A stretch of 55,449 nucleotides of DNA. It comes from Candidatus Woesearchaeota archaeon (lineage in GTDB: Archaea > Nanobdellota > Nanobdellia > Woesearchaeales > BM511). The stretch lies in NCBI GenBank assembly GCA_002867475.1, contig PKTL01000033.1:1-55449 (forward strand). The letters are read 5' to 3'. The translations under genes and the position numbers were made by a program. Of the stretch, positions 13,353 through 38,370 are shown in pieces. The notes below the pieces were generated by a model that was given only the letters and a program-made list of their open reading frames with translations, had not been told where the DNA came from and searched no databases. Positions within the stretch are counted from its first letter, which is position 1, and every line of letters begins with the position of its first letter.

Positions 13353-14141
13353 TTATCTAACAAATCTTTCTTGGTCAGATATATGTTTATTATACATATT
13401 TCTAAGAAGTCTCCATTTAACCTCATTACTTGATAAAGAATTTGGAAACTGTTCAACAAATCTTTGATAATGCCTAGTTTCTGGTTCTTGGCTATACCCA
13501 TCAAGATTTTTCATGAATCCCTTCTTATTAATCTCGGGACACCCATATTCTAATTCATCAAATATCACATCAATCTCATCAAGAGTTCGATGTTCATGAG
13601 TATATTCATCAGACCATTTAGCTAATAGCTCATTGCCGAACGGAAGCTTTGCCCTAAATAACCCCATCAAAGTGTAACGAGGTCTTCTTTGAAGGGATTC
13701 ATACCCCTCATTAATATCCATATCATAAAAAGAATCATTTTTGTTTATGATCCTAAAAACCGTCCCATCATTTGAATGAGCTATTAAATGATTACCCATA
13801 CTGGCTTGTGTGGGTTTATTTGGTTGATGAGATTCTAGATCAATAGTTACATCAAGATCATGCAGCCCATATTGATTACCCTTTCTTAATTCACCATCAC
13901 TCATCATCATATAAGACCCTATTAATCCACTCCAAGGCTCAAGCGATTTTGCATATGAAACTAAACTTTGTGGAGAATTAAAACTTTTAATCCAACCTTC
14001 CAAACCAAGATTAACATTATACAAAGGATACCTCTTTAATTCTTTTTTTGAAGAATGATGAGCTATTAGTGCTGAATGTATGAATTTAGCAATTGGACCT
14101 ACATGCATTGAACTATCATCCGAATCAATTCTTGAAGCCAT
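13353..14141 (-). CDS. Hypothetical protein, 262 aa
   Basis: Not recognised. The protein is soluble and has no signal peptide. Notable features are an acidic stretch YGLHDLDVTIDLE around residue 93-105, several His and Trp residues, and a basic C-terminus. It contains fewer Lys and more His, Arg and Ser than its neighbours, which could reflect a different history. It ends 17 bp from the convergent membrane protein gene. No motif supports a function. Confidence 0.5.
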   Translation of the reverse strand: MASRIDSDDSSMHVGPIAKFIHSALIAHHSSKKELKRYPLYNVNLGLEGWIKSFNSPQSLVSYAKSLEPWSGLIGSYMMMSDGELRKGNQYGLHDLDVTIDLESHQPNKPTQASMGNHLIAHSNDGTVFRIINKNDSFYDMDINEGYESLQRRPRYTLMGLFRAKLPFGNELLAKWSDEYTHEHRTLDEIDVIFDELEYGCPEINKKGFMKNLDGYSQEPETRHYQRFVEQFPNSLSSNEVKWRLLRNMYNKHISDQERFVR

Positions 14142-14200
14142 TTTGTAATAGTAACTAAATCAAGTTATTTATATTTCTTTCTCATTGACATGGCAGCAAC

Positions 14201-14211
14201 TTTTATAAATA
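14201..14211 (+). promoter_or_regulatory. TATA box of the ileS leader
   Basis: TTTATAAAT (14202-14210) is centred about 26 nt before the ATG of the Ile-rich leader ORF at 14232. Archaeal spacing from TATA centre to transcription start is about 25 nt, so the transcript should start at the leader ATG. The ileS ATG itself is then about 130 nt into the mRNA. Confidence 0.6.
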
Positions 14212-14231
14212 ACCTGCTCATCTTTTTTTCT

Positions 14232-14285
14232 ATGAATAAACTATTAATTGTTCAAATCATTATTTCTATCATTATTATAGCATAA
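14232..14285 (+). CDS. Putative Ile-rich leader peptide of ileS
   Basis: 17 codons: MNKLLIVQIIISIIIIA. Eight of 17 residues are Ile, spelled with ATT, ATC and ATA, so it is not a simple nucleotide repeat. It begins at the predicted transcription start (leaderless) and ends 76 bp before the isoleucyl-tRNA synthetase ATG. It is followed by an imperfect hairpin with a seven-T loop. This is what a leader peptide for ribosome-mediated attenuation by Ile-tRNA supply would look like. A chance hydrophobic ORF in AT-rich DNA, or a small membrane peptide, are alternatives. The Val-codon run before valS in the same window strengthens the leader reading. Confidence 0.6.
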   Translation: MNKLLIVQIIISIIIIA

Positions 14286-14287
14286 GC

Positions 14288-14310
14288 TCTCCTCCTTTTT
14301 TTGGTGGAGA
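14288..14310 (+). promoter_or_regulatory. Candidate attenuator hairpin / T-tract of ileS
   Basis: TCTCC (14288-14292) pairs with GGAGA (14306-14310); two C then pair with two G inside, around one mismatch, and the loop is seven T (14296-14302). A pyrimidine-rich segment followed by seven T, 11 nt after the leader stop codon, is also a plausible archaeal termination signal by itself. A second potential pairing links TCTATC inside the leader codons with GATAGA about 70 nt downstream. Confidence 0.45.
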
Positions 14311-14361
14311 AACACTTATAAGATAGATAGAGATTCAATAAACTAAAAATATGTGATCACA

Positions 14362-17300
14362 ATGAAACAAATACCAAACTATAACCATGCAGAAGTTGAA
14401 AAAGAAGTGACTGAATTCTGGGAAAAAAACCAGATCTATCCTAAGACTAAAGAGAAAAATAAAGGAAAGCAAAAATTCTATTATCTAGATGGACCACCAT
14501 ATACATCAGGAAAAATTCACATAGGTCATGCTTGGGGTAAGGCTCTTCGTGACATGGCTATGCGTTATAAGAGAATGAAAGGTTTTGATGTTTGGGATAG
14601 AAGCGGTTTTGATATGCATGGTCTGCCAATCTCCCATAAGGTTGAAGCTAAGCTTGGTATTAAAGGAAAAGATGCTATTGAAGAGCATGGTGTAAAAGAA
14701 TTCATTGAAGAATGTAAGAAGCTCGCAATTGATAATATGAACAGCATGATCGTTGACTTCAAACGTATCGGTGTCTGGATGGATTTCGACAATCCTTACA
14801 AACCAATTGATAACAGTTATATTGAAGGTATCTGGTGGCTGATAAAAAAGGCACATGAAAATAATAGATTGTATGAGGGTAAAAGAACCCTTACTTGGTG
14901 TAGTAATTGTGAAACTAGTGCAGCAAAGCACGAGCTCGAATACCAAAATGTCAAAGATAACTCTATCTTTGTGAAACTAAAGATAAAAAATACCGAAAAC
15001 GACTACCTTGTTGTTTGGACAACCACTCCTTGGACTATCCCATTCAACTTAGCGGTTATGGTTAATCCTGATGTTGATTATGTTAAATGTAGTGTGGAAG
15101 GTGAGAATTGGATTGTTGCAAAAGTACTTGCGGCACCATTTATCAAAACTGTATGCGATAAAGATTATGAAGTTATTGAAGAATTCAAAGGAGAAAAATT
15201 AGAAGGAACTGCTTACACTCATCCTTTCGAGAACGAGATTGATTATCCTAAGGCTGAAAAGCTTCACACAGTTCTTCTTAGTGCTGAATATGTTGATACT
15301 AGTGGAGGTTCTGGCCTTGTACACTGCGCCCCTGGTTGCGGCGGAGAGGATTATGAGGTTGGTTACAGAAATGGCCTTCCAGCATTCAATAATGTGAATG
15401 AAATGGGTGTTTTTGAAAATATGGGAAAGTTCACTGGCTTAAAAGCAAAAACCGATGATAAAGAATTTATAAGATTCATTGATGAATCTGGAGCACTTAT
15501 CGCTAAAACACCTATTGAGCATGATTATCCTCATTGTGAAAGATGTCATAAACCTGTAATTTTTAGAAGTACTAAACAATGGTTTTTCAAAGTTGAAGAT
15601 TTAACTGAAGAAATGAAAACATTGAATAAAGATATTGACTGGGTACCTTATTGGGCAGGTAGCAAACAATTTCATTCATGGCTTGATAACCTAAGAGATA
15701 ATAGCATCACTAAACAGATCCATTGGGGAACACCATTTCCTGTTTGGAAATGTGAAGATGAACTTTGCGGAAAATATACTGTTGTTGGAGATTCAAAAGA
15801 ATTAGGAAATCTTATTGGTGAAGAGAATGTTCCTAAAGACTTGCATAAACCTTACATCGATGAAGTGACCATACCTTGCGAATGTGGTAAAAAACAAATA
15901 AAAAATCCTGATGTATTAGATGTTTGGGTTGATGCTGGTTGCAGCAGTTGGCTTTGCCTTGATTACCCCGTAAGAACTGATTTATTTGATGAAATGTTCC
16001 CTGCTGATTTTATTTTAGAAGGTAAAGATCAAATTAGAGGATGGTTCAATTTACTTTTTGTTGCTAGTATGGTTTCAATGAAAAAACCAAGTTTTAAAGC
16101 TTGTTACATGCATGGTTTCATCAATGATAAACATGGTGAAAAATTCTCTAAAACCAAAGGTAATGGTATTAGCCCTTATGAAGTGATTGATAAACTTGGA
16201 GCTGATACATTAAGATATTATTCAATAGGTGGAGCTAACCCAGGTCTTGATTTGAATTATAATGAAGACGATGCTAATTTATGTTTTAGAAACCTAAGCG
16301 TTTTTTGGAATCTTCATAAATATGTTATTGATACTTCAAGAACTATCGGTAAGAAACCTTCAAAAACAACAAATCATAGTGTTGAAGATAGATATATAAT
16401 ATCCAAACTTAATTCCACAATCAAAAAAGTTACTAAACATCTTGATAAGTATGAGTTAAATGTTGTTCCTGGAATCATTGAAGATTTATTTATGGAATTA
16501 TCAAGGACTTATGTTCAACTTATCAGAGATAAGCTTGTTCTTGGTACTGATGAAGAAAAAGAAAACATTCTTTACACTATGAATAAGGTTTTTAGTGAAG
16601 GTCTTAAACTTTTTTCAGTTGTTAGCCCTTACATTAGTGAAGCAATGTATCAAAATTTTAAAAATGAATTTAATCTTAAAACGGTGAGCATTCACCTTTT
16701 TGATTGGCCAGAATTCGATGAGAATGTGATTGATGAAAGTCTTGAATCCAATTTTGAAATTGCTAAAGATACTATTCAATCAATTCTTGCAAGCAGAGAG
16801 AAAGCATCACTTGGTGTTAGGTGGCCTGTTAAGGAAATTGTTATTGTTCCAAAATCTGATGAAATTAAACAAGCTATAACAAATCTTCAGGATTTAATAA
16901 TGGTTCAAACAAATGTTAAAGAGATCAAGTTTGTTGAGAAATTTGAAGGTGTTACTAAAAAGCTTGAACCAAACTATAAAGCGATGGGTCAGGATTTTGG
17001 AAAGAATGTTCAAACTATTGCTAAAGTTATTCCTGAACTAAATCCAGACAAGGTTTTATCTGATGAAGGAGATATGGTAAATGTTGACGGGCATGATTTT
17101 ATTGTAAAAGAAAAACATATCAAGGTTAGCCGAGAAGTGTCAGAAGATTTTGCTTCAGGTGAATATAAGCAAGGAGAACTTTACCTCGATAAGACAAGAA
17201 CTTTTACTCTTGACGCTGAAGGCTATAGCAGAGAAGTTATTCGAAGGATACAGGATACAAGAAAAACTGCTGGATTGCAAAAAACTGATAATATCAATCT

Positions 17301-17466
17301 TGTGTTGATTGTTAGTGATTCATTGAAGAAGTCTCTTGAAATGTTTGCTGATGACATAAAGGTCAAATGTGGTGTTAAAGAATTAGCTTTTGAAGGAACA
17401 GGAAGTAATTCAAGCGAAGCAAATATTAAAGGTGAAGAAGTCAAGATCTTCTTTGATAAAATTTAA
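14362..17466 (+). CDS. ileS: Isoleucyl-tRNA synthetase
   Basis: 1034 aa from the ATG at 14362. A GTG nine bases upstream is in frame, but its GTGATC is better read as the Shine-Dalgarno sequence. HIGH is intact (KIHIGHA, about residue 51-57) and KMSKS appears as KFSKTKG (about 594). The CP1 editing domain is present (VVWTTTPWTIPFN, GLVHCAPGCGGEDYEVG). Several CxxC pairs around residues 185, 395 and 470-505 probably bind zinc. The C-terminal anticodon-binding region is complete. It charges tRNA-Ile and edits mischarged Val. Expression may be controlled by the Ile-rich leader ORF just upstream. Confidence 0.95.
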   Translation: MKQIPNYNHAEVEKEVTEFWEKNQIYPKTKEKNKGKQKFYYLDGPPYTSGKIHIGHAWGKALRDMAMRYKRMKGFDVWDRSGFDMHGLPISHKVEAKLGIKGKDAIEEHGVKEFIEECKKLAIDNMNSMIVDFKRIGVWMDFDNPYKPIDNSYIEGIWWLIKKAHENNRLYEGKRTLTWCSNCETSAAKHELEYQNVKDNSIFVKLKIKNTENDYLVVWTTTPWTIPFNLAVMVNPDVDYVKCSVEGENWIVAKVLAAPFIKTVCDKDYEVIEEFKGEKLEGTAYTHPFENEIDYPKAEKLHTVLLSAEYVDTSGGSGLVHCAPGCGGEDYEVGYRNGLPAFNNVNEMGVFENMGKFTGLKAKTDDKEFIRFIDESGALIAKTPIEHDYPHCERCHKPVIFRSTKQWFFKVEDLTEEMKTLNKDIDWVPYWAGSKQFHSWLDNLRDNSITKQIHWGTPFPVWKCEDELCGKYTVVGDSKELGNLIGEENVPKDLHKPYIDEVTIPCECGKKQIKNPDVLDVWVDAGCSSWLCLDYPVRTDLFDEMFPADFILEGKDQIRGWFNLLFVASMVSMKKPSFKACYMHGFINDKHGEKFSKTKGNGISPYEVIDKLGADTLRYYSIGGANPGLDLNYNEDDANLCFRNLSVFWNLHKYVIDTSRTIGKKPSKTTNHSVEDRYIISKLNSTIKKVTKHLDKYELNVVPGIIEDLFMELSRTYVQLIRDKLVLGTDEEKENILYTMNKVFSEGLKLFSVVSPYISEAMYQNFKNEFNLKTVSIHLFDWPEFDENVIDESLESNFEIAKDTIQSILASREKASLGVRWPVKEIVIVPKSDEIKQAITNLQDLIMVQTNVKEIKFVEKFEGVTKKLEPNYKAMGQDFGKNVQTIAKVIPELNPDKVLSDEGDMVNVDGHDFIVKEKHIKVSREVSEDFASGEYKQGELYLDKTRTFTLDAEGYSREVIRRIQDTRKTAGLQKTDNINLVLIVSDSLKKSLEMFADDIKVKCGVKELAFEGTGSNSSEANIKGEEVKIFFDKI

Positions 17467-25139: not shown

Positions 25140-26350
25140 GATTTGCACATATTGCTGATTGCCATCTTGGAGGTTGGCGTGACCAGAAGATGAGAGAACT
25201 TTCTATCCAATCTTTTGAAAAAGCAATCAGTTTTATTATCGATAAGAATGTTGATTTTTTACTTCTTTCAGGAGACCTATTTAATACGAGCCATCCTGGA
25301 ATTGACATATTGAAAATAGCTGTAAGCAACCTTAAAAAATTACAGAAAAATAATATACCTATTTACGCTATTGCAGGTAGCCACGATTTTAGCCCCAGTG
25401 GAAAAACCATGCTTGACGTTCTAGAAGAAGCAGGACTTCTTTTCAATATAGTCAAAGGAGAAGTAAAAGATAATAAGCTAAGGCTTAAATTTACAACTGA
25501 CAGAAAAACAGATGCTAAGATAGCAGGTATGTTAGGAAAAAAAGGTAGTCTTGAAAGAAACTATTATGAGGATCTTGACAGAGAAAATCTTGAATCTGAA
25601 AAAGGCTTTAAGATATTTATGTTCCATACGGCAATTGAAGAATTGAAACCTAAAAGCCTTGAAAAGATGAGTGCTGAACCAATATCCATACTTCCAAAAG
25701 GTTTTGATTATTATGCAGGAGGTCATGTTCACATAATTGAAAATAGGAATATAAACAATTATTCGAATGTTGTATATCCCGGCCCAACATATCCTAATAA
25801 TTTTAGGGAACTTGAAGAATTGAAGCAAGGTAGCTTTTCCATATTTGATAATGGTAAAGTTGAATCAATAATGATTCCATCAAAAAAAGTTACTTCAATC
25901 ACTATTAACTGCGATATGAAACAAGCAAAACAAGTTGAAATTGAAGTTTTGGAAAAGATTTCAAATAGTGAATTATATAACAACATTGTACTTCTTCGAT
26001 TTAAAGGTAAGCTTGTCCATTCTAAAGTTCAGGATATTGATTTCAATAAGATAGTAAAAGAATGCTATTCAAAAGCTGCATATTTTGTGATGAGAAATAC
26101 TTCATTACTATCTGATGAGAGATTTGAAGATATTAGAATCGATGAAGATAATGTAGATAATATCGAGGAAAGATTGATAGATGAGCATATTGAAGAATTC
26201 AAGCATGAAAATGAATTAATAAGAAAAGAAGAATTATTATCTTTGATGAAAGTTCTGGCTGATAATAAGATTGAAGGGGAAACAAATACAGATTTTGAAT
26301 CGAGATTGATTAAAGATATTGATCGTGTTCTTGAAAAAGATAATATTTGA
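25136..26350 (+). CDS. mre11: DNA double-strand break repair nuclease Mre11
   Basis: 404 aa. The phosphoesterase motifs are in order: DCHLGG (motif I), LLSGDLFN (II), IAGSHDF (III, GNHD changed to GSHD), FMFHTAI (IV) and AGGHVHI (V). The C-terminal part is a helical cap and Rad50-contact region. In archaea Mre11 pairs with Rad50, HerA and NurA to resect breaks. Rad50 is not in the window. The Asn-to-Ser change in motif III is worth noting, since Asn is normally a metal ligand there. Its 3' end overlaps the convergent citramalate synthase gene by 41 bp. Confidence 0.9.
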   Translation: MRFAHIADCHLGGWRDQKMRELSIQSFEKAISFIIDKNVDFLLLSGDLFNTSHPGIDILKIAVSNLKKLQKNNIPIYAIAGSHDFSPSGKTMLDVLEEAGLLFNIVKGEVKDNKLRLKFTTDRKTDAKIAGMLGKKGSLERNYYEDLDRENLESEKGFKIFMFHTAIEELKPKSLEKMSAEPISILPKGFDYYAGGHVHIIENRNINNYSNVVYPGPTYPNNFRELEELKQGSFSIFDNGKVESIMIPSKKVTSITINCDMKQAKQVEIEVLEKISNSELYNNIVLLRFKGKLVHSKVQDIDFNKIVKECYSKAAYFVMRNTSLLSDERFEDIRIDEDNVDNIEERLIDEHIEEFKHENELIRKEELLSLMKVLADNKIEGETNTDFESRLIKDIDRVLEKDNI

Positions 26351-27890
26351 ATGCTTTTTCGATCGCTTCAAAGCTTGCAACTAGTATATTGGAATTTACA
26401 CCTACAGTTGCAAATGATCTGTTTCCACATGCAAATTCTATGAATACTCTTACCGTTGATGATTCTCCTTTATCTTCAGCTATACGAACCTTGTAATTAA
26501 CTAGATGTATACAATCAAGATTCTTGTAGGATGTTGCTAAGAATTTTTTCATAGCGTTATATGCTGCATCAACTGGACCACCCAATATAGGTGCTACCAC
26601 TTCACATTTCTTGCCATTTATACTACCGATTACTAGACAATCACTTTTCTCAATACCTTTTTCATAAGAGGATATTATCCTCCAAGAATCAAGAATAAAA
26701 AAATCTTTATCTGAATCAAAGAATTGTTTCATCAAAAGAAATTTTTCTGCATCGATATCCCCTATATCATATCCTTTTTTCTCCATATTTTCAACTTTTT
26801 TTAGCATATCAACTATTCTCTTGTCATTCTTATCAATATCATCTAAATTAAACCCTTTTAGAACTTCAATTATGTTTGCTTTACCGCTTAAGTCTGAAAG
26901 AATTATACTTCTTTTATTTCCTACTAAAGAAGGATCTATATGCTCATAGCTTGCACCTTTGCTTATTGCATCAACATGAATACCTCCTTTATGGGCAAAA
27001 GAATTATCACCCACGAAAGGCTGGTTTCTTATTGGTTTATTGTTTGATAATGTGTATGCTAGATCGCTTATGCTTTTCAAGCTTGATAGTTTCACATTAG
27101 TTTCATATTGTTTCTTTATCATAAGGTTGGGTATTATCTGACAGAGATCTGCGTTTCCACAACGTTCACCAAAACCATTTAGTGTTCCTTGTATATGCTT
27201 TACTCCTTTATCTACAGATATTATGCTGTTTGAAACTGCTAAACCACTATCATTATGTATATGAACACCAAGCCCTATATTTAATTTTTCAGATTTTAAA
27301 AATAAATTAACCTCATCAAGGATCATGTCTGTATCCCTAACACTTGTTCCACCATTAGTATCACATAATACTAAGCATTTCGCACCACCATCATATGCTG
27401 CTTTCAATGTTTTTAATGCATATTCTTTGTTATTTTTGAATCCGTCAAAGAAATGTTCTGCATCAAAAAATACTTCTATTCCTTTATCAGTTAAAAATCT
27501 TATACTTTCTTCTATTGAAATGAGATTATCATCAAGAGAACATTTTAGTTGTTTTATGACATGATCATCCCAGCTTTTCCCAAATATGCTTGATACTTTT
27601 GCTTTTGATTCAATTATTGCTTTCAAATTAGAATCTTCTTCTGCTTTGATGTTTTTTCTTCTTGTGCTTCCAAAAGCGCTTATCTTAGAATTTTTTAAAT
27701 CAAGTTCTGATACTTTAAGGAATGTTTCCATATCTTTTAGATTACTTCCGGGCCATCCAAGCTCTATGTAGTCAACTCCAAATTCATCTAATGATTTGAC
27801 AAATTCTATCTTGTCATGTAATGTTAGATTCACGTCAGGGCTTTGTGTTCCATCCCTAAGGGTTGTATCATATATCTCTATCTTATTCAT
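26310..27890 (-). CDS. cimA: (R)-citramalate synthase / alpha-isopropylmalate synthase-like
   Basis: 526 aa from the ATG at 27890, preceded by a weak GTGAA; a GTG at 27899 is less likely. HMG-CoA-lyase-type TIM barrel: IYDTTLRDGTQSPDVN at the start, VHIHNDSGLAVSNSI as the metal-binding His pair, and LNGFGERCGNADLC. A LeuA-type regulatory domain forms the C-terminal 130 residues. Length and the GSVN-less barrel fit the TIGR00977-type citramalate synthases, which condense pyruvate and acetyl-CoA in the pyruvate route to isoleucine; 2-isopropylmalate synthase is the alternative. It follows deoxyhypusine synthase by 34 bp. No other branched-chain biosynthesis gene is present. Confidence 0.82.
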   Translation of the reverse strand: MNKIEIYDTTLRDGTQSPDVNLTLHDKIEFVKSLDEFGVDYIELGWPGSNLKDMETFLKVSELDLKNSKISAFGSTRRKNIKAEEDSNLKAIIESKAKVSSIFGKSWDDHVIKQLKCSLDDNLISIEESIRFLTDKGIEVFFDAEHFFDGFKNNKEYALKTLKAAYDGGAKCLVLCDTNGGTSVRDTDMILDEVNLFLKSEKLNIGLGVHIHNDSGLAVSNSIISVDKGVKHIQGTLNGFGERCGNADLCQIIPNLMIKKQYETNVKLSSLKSISDLAYTLSNNKPIRNQPFVGDNSFAHKGGIHVDAISKGASYEHIDPSLVGNKRSIILSDLSGKANIIEVLKGFNLDDIDKNDKRIVDMLKKVENMEKKGYDIGDIDAEKFLLMKQFFDSDKDFFILDSWRIISSYEKGIEKSDCLVIGSINGKKCEVVAPILGGPVDAAYNAMKKFLATSYKNLDCIHLVNYKVRIAEDKGESSTVRVFIEFACGNRSFATVGVNSNILVASFEAIEKAFKYYLFQEHDQYL

Positions 27891-27924
27891 ATTTTTCACA
27901 TATTTTAGGATTTTGATATCCTTT

Positions 27925-28953
27925 TTAATTCTTATCCTTAATTTTAATAAAAGTACCTGCTACAATTAAAGGAAATGCGATACTTGCATCACAATACACT
28001 TTTGTGTGAGGTGCATCTATCTTTATCTTTGCCCAAGTTTTTGCTTCTTCCTCATTTCCACCGCTATCACTTCCGTCATAAGGTGTCGCTGTTGATATAT
28101 AGACTGCGTAATCAAAACCTTCCTTGAATATATTCGCATTTAGTATGTAATGTTTTGAAATGCCCCCTCCAAGAACAATAGCTCCTGTTTTTGAAGAATT
28201 CATAGTTTCATCTATTATCTTTTCATGATCAAGTGTTGGATCGATTGTGAAACCTTTATGAGTTTTCTTGTAGAAATAAAGCATATCTCCTATCGCACCA
28301 TCAACTATTCCAGGACAGTAGACAGAGATATCATTCTTGTATGCCCAATAGATATAGCTTGATTCATGGTCATAATCTTTTTCTTCTTCTAATATCTTAC
28401 CGAACATCTTTATTATTTGACTTGGTGAAACTATAGTAATGCCTTCTTTTTCTTTTTCTTCCCTTAATCTGTCAAATGCTTTTCTCATAAAGAATTCAAA
28501 ATAAGAGTATTGCTCATTTGTTCCGAATATATTTCCTATCCTTCCAACACCTGCATCAAACAAGGTTTTTCCAGAAGTTTCAAAATTTCCAAGCCTAAAC
28601 GGACTTCTTGATTTGATGACATCTTCTTCTACACCTCCTGCAGCTGTGCTTAATATATGAACTTTTTTTTGCTTTACAAGATACTTGATTATCTCTCTTA
28701 CTCCGCTTGATATCATGTTGCTAGTGAAGGAAAGATATATTTTAGCATCTTCTCTTATCATGGCCCTGATTATGTGTACTGCTTCACCAAGATTTGTTGC
28801 TTGTATTCCTGTTGTGCTAAATGATTCAAGAAAATCATTGAAATCGAATTGATTCTCGAAATCATATCCTTTGATTTCTGGTAAGTTTGATAGGTCTGTT
28901 GATTTTTTTACTTGATAATATAATTTTTTATCTTGATTTTTTTCTTTTGACAT
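27925..28953 (-). CDS. dys: Deoxyhypusine synthase
   Basis: 342 aa from the ATG at 28953, preceded by GAGGT; a TTG further upstream is rejected. Conserved stretches: YLSFTSNMISSGVREII, STAAGGVEEDVIK, SIYWAYKN-type region, VYCPGIVDGAIGDM and LGGGISKHYILNAN, which holds the catalytic lysine. It transfers the aminobutyl group of spermidine to a lysine of aIF5A using NAD. aIF5A is not in the window. Two-gene unit with the citramalate synthase. Confidence 0.93.
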   Translation of the reverse strand: MSKEKNQDKKLYYQVKKSTDLSNLPEIKGYDFENQFDFNDFLESFSTTGIQATNLGEAVHIIRAMIREDAKIYLSFTSNMISSGVREIIKYLVKQKKVHILSTAAGGVEEDVIKSRSPFRLGNFETSGKTLFDAGVGRIGNIFGTNEQYSYFEFFMRKAFDRLREEKEKEGITIVSPSQIIKMFGKILEEEKDYDHESSYIYWAYKNDISVYCPGIVDGAIGDMLYFYKKTHKGFTIDPTLDHEKIIDETMNSSKTGAIVLGGGISKHYILNANIFKEGFDYAVYISTATPYDGSDSGGNEEEAKTWAKIKIDAPHTKVYCDASIAFPLIVAGTFIKIKDKN

Positions 28954-29086
28954 TTTGAACCTCAATTGTTTTTATTTGATATTTGTTGAATAATAAATAA
29001 AAAATGATTTATATTTGATTTTTTTAAGAGCCTATAACCTATAATTTAAGAAAAAGTGATTAGCTTTGGTCTCTTTTCTTGAAAAT

Positions 29087-34567: not shown

Positions 34568-37075
34568 TCAATCACATATTTCAACATTAAAACCCTCTTT
34601 TTCTTCAAAGACGATCTCTTGTATCTTACTTGCACTTTTCAGATCTTCTATTACAAATTTTATAAATTCAATATTTTCCAAGCTAGTCTTTATCACTGCT
34701 TTAGATATATCTACTTTCAAGCTCAGACCTTTTTGACTCTTGTATTTTCTTGCTTCAGCTAACACTTCCACAAGAAGGTCTCCTGCTTTGATAGCACCAT
34801 CATTTATACTTCCTGAAATAGGCCATTGTGCACGATGGACTGAATCAATACCTTCAATATCTGCAAAATATAATTGATAAACTTCTTCAGTTATGTAAGG
34901 CATAAAGGGTGCGAAAAGCTTTATCACATTTGAAAACGCAGTATATAATGAATATTTCCCACTTTCAACTTTTTCTTTTCCCCACTCATCAGGATTATAC
35001 ATCCTATCTTTGACTATCTCAAGATAATTATCACACAAGTCTTGCCAAAAGAAAAGCTCAACCTCAGATTTAGCTTTACTATATTCATATTTATCGAAAC
35101 TTTTTGTTGCAGTATCTATAACCTTATTAAGTTTTGATATTAGCCAAGCATCAATTATTTCCAGCTTTGGAGCATCTCCTTCTGGTTTATACCCATCAAG
35201 CTGCATTATCGCAAATTTAGTAGCGTTCCACATCTTTGTTGTTGTCTTGTTTGCAGTTACAAGGTCTTTTTCCTGGAAGGGCATATCTTCGCCCAATTTT
35301 GAACCTGCAGCCCAATATCTTATAGCATCACTATTATATTTATCGTGCATCTCCCTAGGATCAACAACATTTACTTTGCTCTTGCTCATCTTTTTTCCAT
35401 GAGGGTCAAGAGCAAAACCACTTATCGCAACATCCTTGAAAGGATTGGCATCATATAACAAATTATTTTTTGACATCGTATAGAATAACCAGAAGTTTAT
35501 GATATCATGAGCTTGAGGCCTAAGATCCATAGGAAACAATTTTTTTCTCATATCTTCATTTTTGACATAAACAAGAGGAAGCTCCGGACTTGAACCGCTT
35601 GTAAACCAAGTGTCCATTGTATCTGTTTCAGGTATCAATTCCAGATCTTTTGGTGCAGAATTAGGTCTATCTACAACAGGATCTATAGGTAATTGATCTA
35701 CATCTGGGAGATATTCATTACCTTCCTTATCATACCATACAGGTATTGGAATCCCATAATTTCTTTGCCTACTAAAACCCCAATCCCAGTTCAATCCTTT
35801 TATCCAATTCTCAAGCCTGATCTTCATATGTGTCGGGTACCAGTTGAATTTATTTGCCATCTCAAAAAGATATTCCTTTTTATCAAGATACTCAACATAC
35901 CATTGGTATGAAACTATATATTCAACCTCTACCTGGTTTCTTTCAGATACGTTGACTACTTGCTCTTTTTTCTCATTGAATATTATATCACCAGTTTCTT
36001 TCATAGAAATTATTATGTCTTTTCTTGCTTCTTCAGCAAGCTTTCCTTCATAATCTCCGCCAAGATTATTTAATCTTCCTGCCTTATCTATAAGTTCTAC
36101 AGGTGTTGCTTTATGACGTGACACCCATTCAATATCCTCTGCACCGCCATATGTGCAAAAATATGCTATTCCCGTACCAAAATCGGCTTTTACGGCTACA
36201 TCATGAGAAATCTCCACAACTTTATCAACTGAAGGAATCTTTACTTTTTCACCGATAAGATTTTGTCCTTTTAGTTCTTCAACGATTTCATATTCAAAAT
36301 CTTTGAATTTTTCTTCGTATGTTGCTTTTCCAGTGATCCAATATTCATCTCCTACTTTTAGTTTTACATATTCGCCCGAATCTTCAACACTCATCCCAAC
36401 TACTGCAAAACAAAGTTCAGGTCTTGTAGTCGCATATATGACATAAGTATTAACTGAACCTTCAATTTTTGCTTTCACATAATTCAGATATGCTTTTCTT
36501 GTCTCATCTTCAAGTTCTGCTTGAGCAATTGCTGATTGGAATACTCTGTCCCACATGATCGGTCCTTTTCTTCGTTTTATCAATCCTTTATTGTATAAGT
36601 CTATGAATGTTCTTTGGCTTAATCTTCTACTATCCTCATCAATGGTTGAATAGGTATAATCGAAATCACAACTCATTCCAAGATCTTTCCAATCCTGAAT
36701 GAATTCAGCTCTATGTTCATTTACATAATCAAGGCAAACTTTTATCTCTTCAGCACGACTCATTTTCTTAACATCAAGCTTTAATTCTTTTTGGACAAGT
36801 TTTATTGTTGGAAGACCATTATCATCTGTACCAAAAGGATAGAAGACTTCAAAACCTTTCATTCGTTTGTATCTTGCGATAAAATCCTGTTGGGAAAAAC
36901 TAAATGCGTGTCCTATATGCATCCTTCCACTCATCGTTGGAGGAGGAGTATCTATACTATAGACTTCTTTTTTTTAATCTTCATTGAATTTATATGTTCC
37001 TTTCTCTTCCCAGTATTTCTGCCATTTCTTTTCGCTCTCATGAGCATCATATCTCTTGGGTAACTCTTTTTCCAT
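34568..37075 (-). pseudogene. valS: Valyl-tRNA synthetase with in-frame TAA at codon 34
   Basis: The frame from ATG 37075 starts MEKELPKRYDAHESEKKWQ, the usual ValRS N-terminus, reaches FNED and meets TAA (36974-36976). It then continues in frame with KKEVYSIDTPPPTMSGRMHIGHA and the rest of a complete ValRS (822 codons in all). HIGH, KMSKS (GKKMSKSKV), the editing domain and the anticodon-binding domain are intact. The next ATG, 36934, lies inside the ATP-site region and would drop the PPPT strand. Because ValRS is essential, a base error beside the A8 run, readthrough, or a second copy elsewhere are the options. Preceded by a Val-codon leader ORF. Confidence 0.85.
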
Positions 37076-37110: not shown

Positions 37111-37144
37111 AGTTGTCAATGAGCGTGGTTATCCCACCACAACT
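37111..37144 (-). promoter_or_regulatory. Candidate valS attenuator hairpins
   Basis: On the minus-strand RNA, AGUUGU (37144-37139, inside the Val codons) can pair with ACAACU (37116-37111), followed by the U-rich UAUUUCUAAUAAUUAUUU. A nested pairing GUGGU (37140-37136) with ACCAC (37129-37125) also uses Val codons. A ribosome stalled on the Val codons would open both stems. The terminator-like outer stem plus U-rich tail and its overlap with the Val run fit an attenuator. Confidence 0.5.
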
Positions 37145-37164
37145 ACGACCACTGTCTTAAACAT
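37129..37164 (-). CDS. Putative Val leader peptide of valS
   Basis: 11 codons: M-F-K-T-V-V-V-V-V-V-G, then TAA. The six consecutive Val codons are GTG, GTC, GTA, GTT, GTG, GTG, so all four synonyms are used. This argues for selection on the amino acid rather than a nucleotide repeat. The ATG at 37164 lies about 25 nt from the centre of a TATA element (37181-37195), so translation would begin at the very 5' end of the mRNA. It ends 53 nt before the valS ATG. This matches a classical leader peptide sensing charged tRNA-Val. Confidence 0.72.
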   Translation of the reverse strand: MFKTVVVVVVG

Positions 37165-37180
37165 ATTTTAATGAATGGTC

Positions 37181-37195
37181 ATTTTATATTTAAAC
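37181..37195. promoter_or_regulatory. Shared TATA element of divergent valS leader and trpS
   Basis: ATTTTATATTTAAAC reads as a TATA box on both strands, centred near 37188. On the minus strand it is about 25 nt from the valS leader ATG (leaderless). On the plus strand it predicts a start near 37213, leaving about 36 nt of 5' UTR before the likely trpS ATG at 37249. Confidence 0.55.
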
Positions 37196-37248
37196 ATTTC
37201 GACTTGAATGACGAAGGATTTATTAATAAACAAGATTTTATAGTGATT

Positions 37249-38370
37249 ATGGTAACTGTAACACCTTGGGAAGTCAAAGGAAACATTGATTATGACAAGC
37301 TCATAAAAGATTTTGGTGTAGAAAAATTAGATGAAAACCTAATTAAAAGAATCGAAAAACATGCTGGTGAAGTTCATCATATGATCAGACGTAATATTTT
37401 CTTTGCGCATAGAGATATGAAATTTATTTTAGATGAATATGAAAAAGGAAATAAGTTCTTCTTATATACAGGTAGAGCACCTAGTGGAGATACTCATTTA
37501 GGCCATCTTGTGCCTTGGCTTTTTACCAAATGGTTACAAGATAAGTTTGATGTGGAATTATTGTTCCAGTTTCCTGATGAAGAAAAGGTTCTTTTCAAAA
37601 AAGATCTTACTTTTGAAGAGGTTGAAAAGCATCTTTATGAAAACATGCTTGATGTTATAGCATTAGATTTTGATCCTAAAAAGACAAAGTTCTTGATAGA
37701 TACAAAACATGCTGATCTGATGTATAAAGAAGCCTGTAAAGTTGCAAAACATATAACTTTTAGCACAGCAAAAGGTGCTTTTGGTTTTGAGAATGACACT
37801 AATCTTGGAGCTATTTTTTATACGGCTATGCAAGCAGTTCCAGCATTTTTACCTAGCGTTCTAGCTAAAAAAGAGATTCCTTGTCTTATTCCTCACGCAA
37901 TAGATCAAGATCCTCATTTTAGGGTTAGTCGTGATGTTATTCCTAAATTAGGCCATTATAAACCTGCAAGCATACAATGTAGATTTTTACCAGGTCTTGG
38001 TGGTATGAGTGAGGATGGTAAGATGAGTAGTAGTGCTGCTAGTACAACAACTGTATTTACTACTGATGACGCTAAAACTGTTAAGAAAAAGATAAATAAA
38101 TATGCATTTAGTGGTGGTCAAGTCACGGTTGAAGATCATCGGAAACTTGGTGGGAACCCAGATATTGACGTTAGTTATCAATGGCTTACTTTTTTTGAAG
38201 AAGATGATGCTAAACTTAAACAAATTTATGACGATTATAAGAGCGGTAAGCTTCTTAGTGGAGAATTGAAAGCAATATTGATTGAAAAATTAAATGGTTT
38301 CTTAAGTGAACATCAAAAGAAACGTGAAGAAGCAAAGAAAAAGATAGATCAATATATCTTGAAAGTTTAA
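37249..38370 (+). CDS. trpS: Tryptophanyl-tRNA synthetase, archaeal type
   Basis: 373 aa from ATG 37249 (MVTVTPWEVKGNIDYDKL, the usual archaeal start). An in-frame ATG at 37171 is rejected because that extension runs through the TATA element. HIGH-type motif: FLYTGRAPSGDTHLGHLVP; KMSKS-type motif: DGKMSSSAAST (about residue 257-262). The central IPHAIDQDPHFRVSRDV and PASIQCRFLPGL are archaeal/eukaryotic TrpRS signatures. It charges tRNA-Trp. An 11-codon uORF at 37208 has no Trp codon. Confidence 0.94.
   Translation: MVTVTPWEVKGNIDYDKLIKDFGVEKLDENLIKRIEKHAGEVHHMIRRNIFFAHRDMKFILDEYEKGNKFFLYTGRAPSGDTHLGHLVPWLFTKWLQDKFDVELLFQFPDEEKVLFKKDLTFEEVEKHLYENMLDVIALDFDPKKTKFLIDTKHADLMYKEACKVAKHITFSTAKGAFGFENDTNLGAIFYTAMQAVPAFLPSVLAKKEIPCLIPHAIDQDPHFRVSRDVIPKLGHYKPASIQCRFLPGLGGMSEDGKMSSSAASTTTVFTTDDAKTVKKKINKYAFSGGQVTVEDHRKLGGNPDIDVSYQWLTFFEEDDAKLKQIYDDYKSGKLLSGELKAILIEKLNGFLSEHQKKREEAKKKIDQYILKV

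Follow-up and report, generated by a model that had tools for sequence, protein, structure and literature searches.

Is the short, isoleucine-rich open reading frame (ORF) in front of the isoleucine--tRNA ligase gene (ileS) of a Woesearchaeota archaeon a control element, or a product of chance in AT-rich DNA? Leader-peptide attenuation is described as bacterial, and the bacterial leader-peptide transcription attenuators are of the trp, his, ilv, thr and pheST type. The window analysed here is the whole 55,449-nt stretch of contig PKTL01000033.1. Sequence comparison of this window with related archaeal genomes makes it likely that the ORF at 14232-14285 encodes the leader peptide of a ribosome-mediated attenuator controlling ileS, with a sister element at valS in the same window and others at leuS, thrS and ilvB in relatives.

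The Ile and Val leaders of the window

The Ile leader ORF (14232..14285, + strand; translation MNKLLIVQIIISIIIIA) consists of the codons ATG AAT AAA CTA TTA ATT GTT CAA ATC ATT ATT TCT ATC ATT ATT ATA GCA, closed by TAA. Eight of the 17 codons specify Ile (5 ATT, 2 ATC and 1 ATA). The ATG of ileS, the proposed regulated gene (14362..17466, +; TIGR00392, 779.9 bits against a cut-off of 621.4), lies at 14362, 76 nt 3′ of the leader stop. The ileS protein has its nearest named matches in Candidatus Woesearchaeota genomes. The ORF is supported by its codon tail, by shuffles and by counterparts before ileS in other genomes. None of 3000 dinucleotide shuffles of the region 14142-14361 yielded an ORF with at least seven Ile in its last nine residues. 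Among the 68 short intergenic ORFs of the window, the Ile and Val leaders rank highest in same-residue content over the last nine codons, and the intergenic scan of the window found no ORF with a cognate run besides these two.

A first-pass annotation of this DNA had described the Ile-rich ORF, its length, its Ile content and its distance to ileS as they are read here. The promoter that it proposed is likewise present: the TATA box TTTATAAATA (14202..14211, +) is centred about 27 nt 5′ of the leader ATG, and most related leaders are spaced alike. So is the hairpin with a loop of seven T, which lies directly 3′ of the leader stop (14288..14310, +; loop at 14296-14302; own p=0.02). A search for a hairpin followed by a T run gave 0 sites at 14100-14500, the T7 of the leader being inside the hairpin loop; this sigma-70/terminator scan is a bacterial model and has little weight for archaeal DNA.

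The Val leader ORF (MFKTVVVVVVG, 37129..37164, - strand) is distinguished by its codon run, its shuffles and its intergenic ranking. It has six consecutive Val codons, among which all four Val codons are used, and 0 of 3000 shuffles of its intergenic region matched its tail. The TATA-like box of its promoter (TTTAAATATAA, 37184..37194, -), which the pattern search described below also matched, has its centre about 27 nt 5′ of the Val ATG. An imperfect hairpin extends across the leader stop and is followed by a U-rich stretch (37111..37153, -); its arms are the Val codons and the DNA just 3′ of the stop, and its own p is 0.28, the combined p of the valS set being 0.047.

The valine--tRNA ligase gene valS occupies 34568..37075 (-) and matches NF009687 with 796.8 bits over the part 3′ of an in-frame TAA. 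The ORF start at 36934 was rejected as the start of valS; the true start is the ATG at 37075, and the TAA (36976-36974, -) is codon 34, located between clearly homologous N-terminal and catalytic parts. It may represent a sequencing error, a pseudogene or recoding. A tyrosyl-tRNA-synthetase-like gene of the same genome (L234, G000:C30:20587-21444, -) also has one in-frame TAA, and it is curious to see two such synthetases in one genome. On the other strand, the family matches of the trpS ORF (window 37171-38370, +) begin near residue 28, so its annotated start is probably too early; the promoter of the Val leader overlaps these extra N-terminal codons. Elsewhere in the window, a LeuA-type synthase gene (26310-27899, -) follows a deoxyhypusine synthase gene (27925-28965, -) after a 25-nt gap, and no leader-like ORF was found before these genes (26310-28965, -).

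Cognate leaders in related genomes

DNA upstream of ileS, valS, leuS, thrS and other synthetase genes was surveyed in related Woesearchaeota-like DPANN genomes, nearly all of which are draft assemblies. A leader was scored by a fixed criterion: an ORF of 8-32 codons starting with ATG, whose last nine residues include a run of three, or four in total, of one residue. The first survey, which was unselected, found Ile tails in 17 of 109 ileS regions versus 2 of 77 regions of the other three genes. The same comparison gave 3/30 versus 0/156 for Val tails at valS, 5/12 versus 5/174 for Leu tails at leuS and 4/35 versus 2/151 for Thr tails at thrS. Fisher tests over these four main genes gave p from 1e-4 to 0.012 per residue. 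An enlarged set, partly selected and with slightly looser limits (at most 34 codons, last ten residues), contained cognate leaders in 23/146 ileS, 10/58 valS, 5/12 leuS and 16/50 thrS regions, with few non-cognate tails. The valS figure is 12/60 minus the duplicates L158 and L163. The thrS figure is 17/51 minus L409, behind which there is no thrS, and is inflated because regions L409-L413 and L417 were chosen after pattern-search flags. L307 repeats L069, and L069, L072 and L327 passed the Ile criterion yet look chance-like.

Examples of such leaders in relatives are MVETRGEIIISIII, MRQTIIANISIIIIS and MFSDNIVVSIIII before ileS, MSAYVVVVVG and MISQQQTKSTAVVVVV before valS, MYFNTKNILVLLLL before leuS, and MNRINITRTFSTSTTTTTTTA and MSKKSAVSNKKILTDSTTTTTA before thrS. 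Their N-terminal halves vary freely and the cognate tail is kept. In genus g106 a Thr leader is present in 9 of the 13 genomes fetched, one of the nine (G162) having been flagged beforehand by the pattern search. The regions of serS, proS, hisS-like, glyS, pheS and trpS/tyrS genes provided one possible cognate case in 59: a Tyr-rich mini-ORF, MNNLYFSYGFYKYY, located 33 nt before a tyrS-like gene (L245, G133:C6). It could be a further leader type. The Thr leader of G127 (L409, G127:C20; MKSNKTKTTNFSTSTTTTTTTTI) precedes a gene other than thrS but has a Shine-Dalgarno sequence and a stop hairpin; it may be a left-behind remnant or the controller of another gene.

The presence of leaders is patchy, and about 84% of the surveyed ileS regions are without one. 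It had been anticipated in the first-pass annotation that loss of the ORF in close relatives would speak against it. Such loss is seen in part: G230, the nearest ileS relative (60% identical ileS), and G001 of the same family lack an Ile-rich ORF (loci L071 and L092). Both are members of other genera, and leaders are patchily distributed throughout. The proposal of a control system shared by ileS and valS has gained support, as residue-matched leaders recur before ileS, valS, leuS, thrS and ilvB. The leader ORFs thus have the cognate codon run of a trp/ilv-type attenuator.

RNA structure at the leaders

The 40 nt after the leader stop fold more strongly than shuffled sequences do (31 leaders, combined p=3e-10), 13 of the 31 leaders reaching p≤0.05 individually. 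The thrS hairpin extends across the stop codon, with one arm made up of the last codons and the other of the DNA immediately 3′ of the stop. These arms differ between genomes yet remain complementary (ACCUGC/GCAGGU, ACCUCU/AGAGGU, CAGCC/GGCUG and GCAGCU/AGCUGC). The combined p of the stop-spanning hairpin is 5e-12 for 18 partly related thrS leaders, 0.044 for ileS, 0.047 for valS and 0.42 for leuS; all these shuffle tests count related leaders as independent, and the combined p-values are too small to that extent. Runs of five T within 50 nt of the stop occur in 22 of 54 leaders versus 10.6 expected, mainly before ileS and thrS.

The ileS leaders have a longer-range pairing as well. In many genomes a helix joins the codons TTTCTATCAT to ATGATAGAAA, located 3′ of the hairpin; over 20 leaders it gave p=5e-5, and L094 (ATG with CAT), L309 and L321 show compensated changes (L024 and L307 were left out of this test and of the stop-spanning hairpin test). 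In the window, the leader codon segment ATTTCTATC (14262..14270, +) is the predicted partner of the downstream segment GATAGAGAT (14326..14334, +), the former being supported by compensated changes across the ileS set and the latter by conserved pairing in that set; the window helix itself is short, with 6 Watson-Crick pairs, and at chance level (p=0.84). The valS, leuS and thrS sets showed no counterpart of the long ileS helix, and a universal leader-to-downstream helix was rejected for them. By eye, the post-stop segment in L010, L179 and L220 has two possible pairing partners, the leader codons and a later segment located across the U run.

The attenuator as originally sketched stands in outline, with a stop hairpin, U runs and compensated pairing. 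Its specific switch is hypothetical. The pairing of TCTATC (14265-14270) with GATAGA (14322-14327), which had been taken as an alternative structure, is nested around the hairpin and hence compatible with it.

In many thrS and valS leaders (L411-L426, L112, L159 and L344), the stop is followed by a short motif resembling CTCATTG, which lies partly in an internal loop of the leader hairpin. In the window and 12 loci, no Rfam family, T-box included, was matched at gathering score.

Promoters and leader starts

In 31 of the 32 leaders fitted, the distance from the centre of a TATA box (consensus AACTTTATATATAA) to the leader ATG is 24-30 nt. The box was fitted on the same leaders within 22-33 nt, and the informative part is therefore the sharp peak at 25-27 nt. 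The fit covered 32 of 41 leaders, leaving out the thrS leaders and L013, L097, L208, L209 and L210. This spacing places the predicted transcription start at or next to the leader ATG, so most leaders are probably translated from leaderless mRNA. The thrS leaders of G043, G128 and G130 have a Shine-Dalgarno sequence in place of the TATA box. For the leuS leaders of G125, G128 and G130, no TATA box was found at the usual distance; by eye, the DNA just 5′ of these leaders resembles the end of an upstream gene.

TATA-like boxes also occur in the gap between leader and gene, above chance over 39 gaps (combined p=3e-5; L024 and L010 left out), and a second promoter, from which transcription could skip the leader, is likely inside this gap in a few genomes. 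The leader-ileS gap of the window has no TATA-like box scoring above chance (p=0.18). A general second promoter between leader and gene, although above chance over the set, is unsupported in this genome.

A pattern search independent of known genes

The pattern sought in 223 genomes of the order was a TATA-like box, then an ATG at a distance of 16-24 nt, then five Val codons. This gave 21 rows in 15 genomes, with 13 sites read in frame; the remaining rows duplicated these sites by overlap or lay on the strand opposite thrS leaders. Only three in-frame mini-ORFs of leader size with a Val run were found in the 223 genomes: the valS leader of the window (G000), MKNTTYNVNSVSVVVVVV in G140 and MKSAITQILVLVVVVVFI in G019. 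The latter two both precede acetolactate synthase, the first enzyme of valine synthesis. In G140 and G019 this gene encodes the large subunit of the biosynthetic enzyme (TIGR00118, 626.7 and 636.1 bits, respectively; cut-off 538.35), and in G019 a 2-isopropylmalate synthase gene is located further downstream. Together, valS and acetolactate synthase are the target set expected of an amino-acid sensor. In the corresponding Thr search, the control pattern matched as often or more, and the result served as a pointer only.

Discussion

The mechanism that we propose for ileS would operate as follows. Transcription would start at or just 5′ of the leader ATG, as the TATA spacing suggests, and a ribosome would translate the Ile-rich leader close behind RNA polymerase. 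With charged Ile-tRNA present, the ribosome would finish the leader and leave; the nascent RNA would then fold into the stop-codon hairpins and ileS expression would be low, most likely by a stop of the polymerase at the U run. With charged Ile-tRNA in short supply, the ribosome would stall on the Ile codons and mask the codon arm, upon which the RNA would refold, the polymerase would pass and ileS would be expressed. Sensing by translation is suggested by three observations: the enriched residue matches the downstream gene, the runs mix synonymous codons, and structured RNA lies at the leader stop. GTG and CTG, rare in window genes, are preferred in the leaders, and ATA, a common codon of those genes, is avoided, the codon use of the window serving as a stand-in for all genomes. 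Control of transcription is favoured by the U runs near the leader stop. More generally, we lean slightly towards the existence of a DPANN attenuation regulon, in which leaderless leaders would read the charging of Ile, Val, Leu and Thr tRNAs and act through polymerase stop or release at U runs on synthetase and branched-chain synthesis genes.

It is possible, at a clearly lower probability, that the leader controls translation instead, either because a stalled ribosome refolds the RNA and opens the synthetase start or by reinitiation after the leader. The G028 locus (L024) is consistent with this: 15 nt separate the leader stop from the ileS ATG, and by eye the Shine-Dalgarno sequence lies within a small hairpin. 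A hidden ribosome site of the erm/cat type is possible there and is not apparent in the window. The post-stop hairpins in general lie en route to the gene start, but they mostly end tens of nt before it and leave the ribosome site uncovered, and the enrichment of U runs near the stop fits termination better. Transcription of ileS mainly from a second promoter near 14316-14321 seems unlikely; in that case the leader RNA would be separate and would exert at most transcriptional interference. TTATAAG at 14316-14322 does resemble a TATA box, and gap boxes exceed chance over the 39 gaps. Against this, the gap boxes of the present genome are at chance, several leaders have no gap box, and the leuS leaders of G125, G128 and G130 lack a TATA box at the usual distance.

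That the mini-ORFs encode small functional membrane peptides which lie near synthetase genes by accident is very improbable. Runs of Ile, Val and Leu are hydrophobic, but the Thr leaders are not; the enriched residue varies with the gene, and the cognate tail persists although the N-terminal parts vary freely. Nor is a chance ORF in AT-rich DNA a credible account, even though the codons for Ile are rich in A and T and most relatives lack the leader. The Ile tail was never reached in the shuffles. Val, Leu and Thr have less AT-rich codons, and their runs too precede the cognate synthetase genes; the sites to which the Val pattern pointed were at valS and ilvB. Unless the survey is wrong, the gene specificity seen across genomes has already refuted a chance origin.

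The ribosome-mediated attenuator thus preferred resembles the bacterial attenuators in its short ORF, with many codons for the amino acid made or loaded by the downstream gene, and in the RNA hairpins at the leader stop and the U runs. The archaeal ilvB cases are the closest match to the logic of bacterial ilvBN. In contrast to the bacterial systems, the archaeal leaders have a TATA promoter and are apparently leaderless, the U run is often in the hairpin loop, the window has no hairpin-then-T terminator, and the targets seen are mainly synthetase genes. T-box riboswitches, which stand before bacterial synthetase genes and sense charging of the cognate tRNA, target the same kind of genes; unlike them, the archaeal elements contain an ORF with cognate codon runs and have no Rfam T-box match.

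The literature provides some parallels. The bacterial hairpin-then-T criterion may be inapplicable to archaea, where, according to PMC10450193, terminators depend on a U tract and aCPSF1; the study concerns internal termination at poly-U tracts with aCPSF1 in Methanococcus maripaludis. It shows that archaeal U-tract termination can tune gene expression, as would be the case here, whereas a term search of this paper found no leader peptide. PMC10272879 and PMC11857589 describe the Corynebacterium ilvBNC attenuator, which likewise has a leader before acetolactate synthase but is bacterial. A 2010 survey (PMC2965389) gives leader peptides as known from Proteobacteria and Actinobacteria and adds Firmicutes. 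According to the 2014 transcriptome study of Thermococcus kodakarensis (PMC4247193), attenuators or riboswitches acting in vivo in Archaea lacked direct experimental support. We found no precedent for an archaeal leader-peptide attenuator in the open-licence PMC literature. The logic is that of bacterial leader-peptide attenuation; the domain, the promoter type and the arrangement are new.

If the DPANN regulon exists, bacterial trp-type logic would either have been invented independently on archaeal transcription machinery or be anciently shared. Cognate leaders recurring as a family in uncultivated DPANN archaea would show that regulation there makes use of a tight coupling between ribosome and polymerase. 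The family predicts a testable switch, which could be moved into a cultivable archaeon, and the leaders would offer a sequence-based entry to amino-acid sensing in organisms that are not yet culturable.
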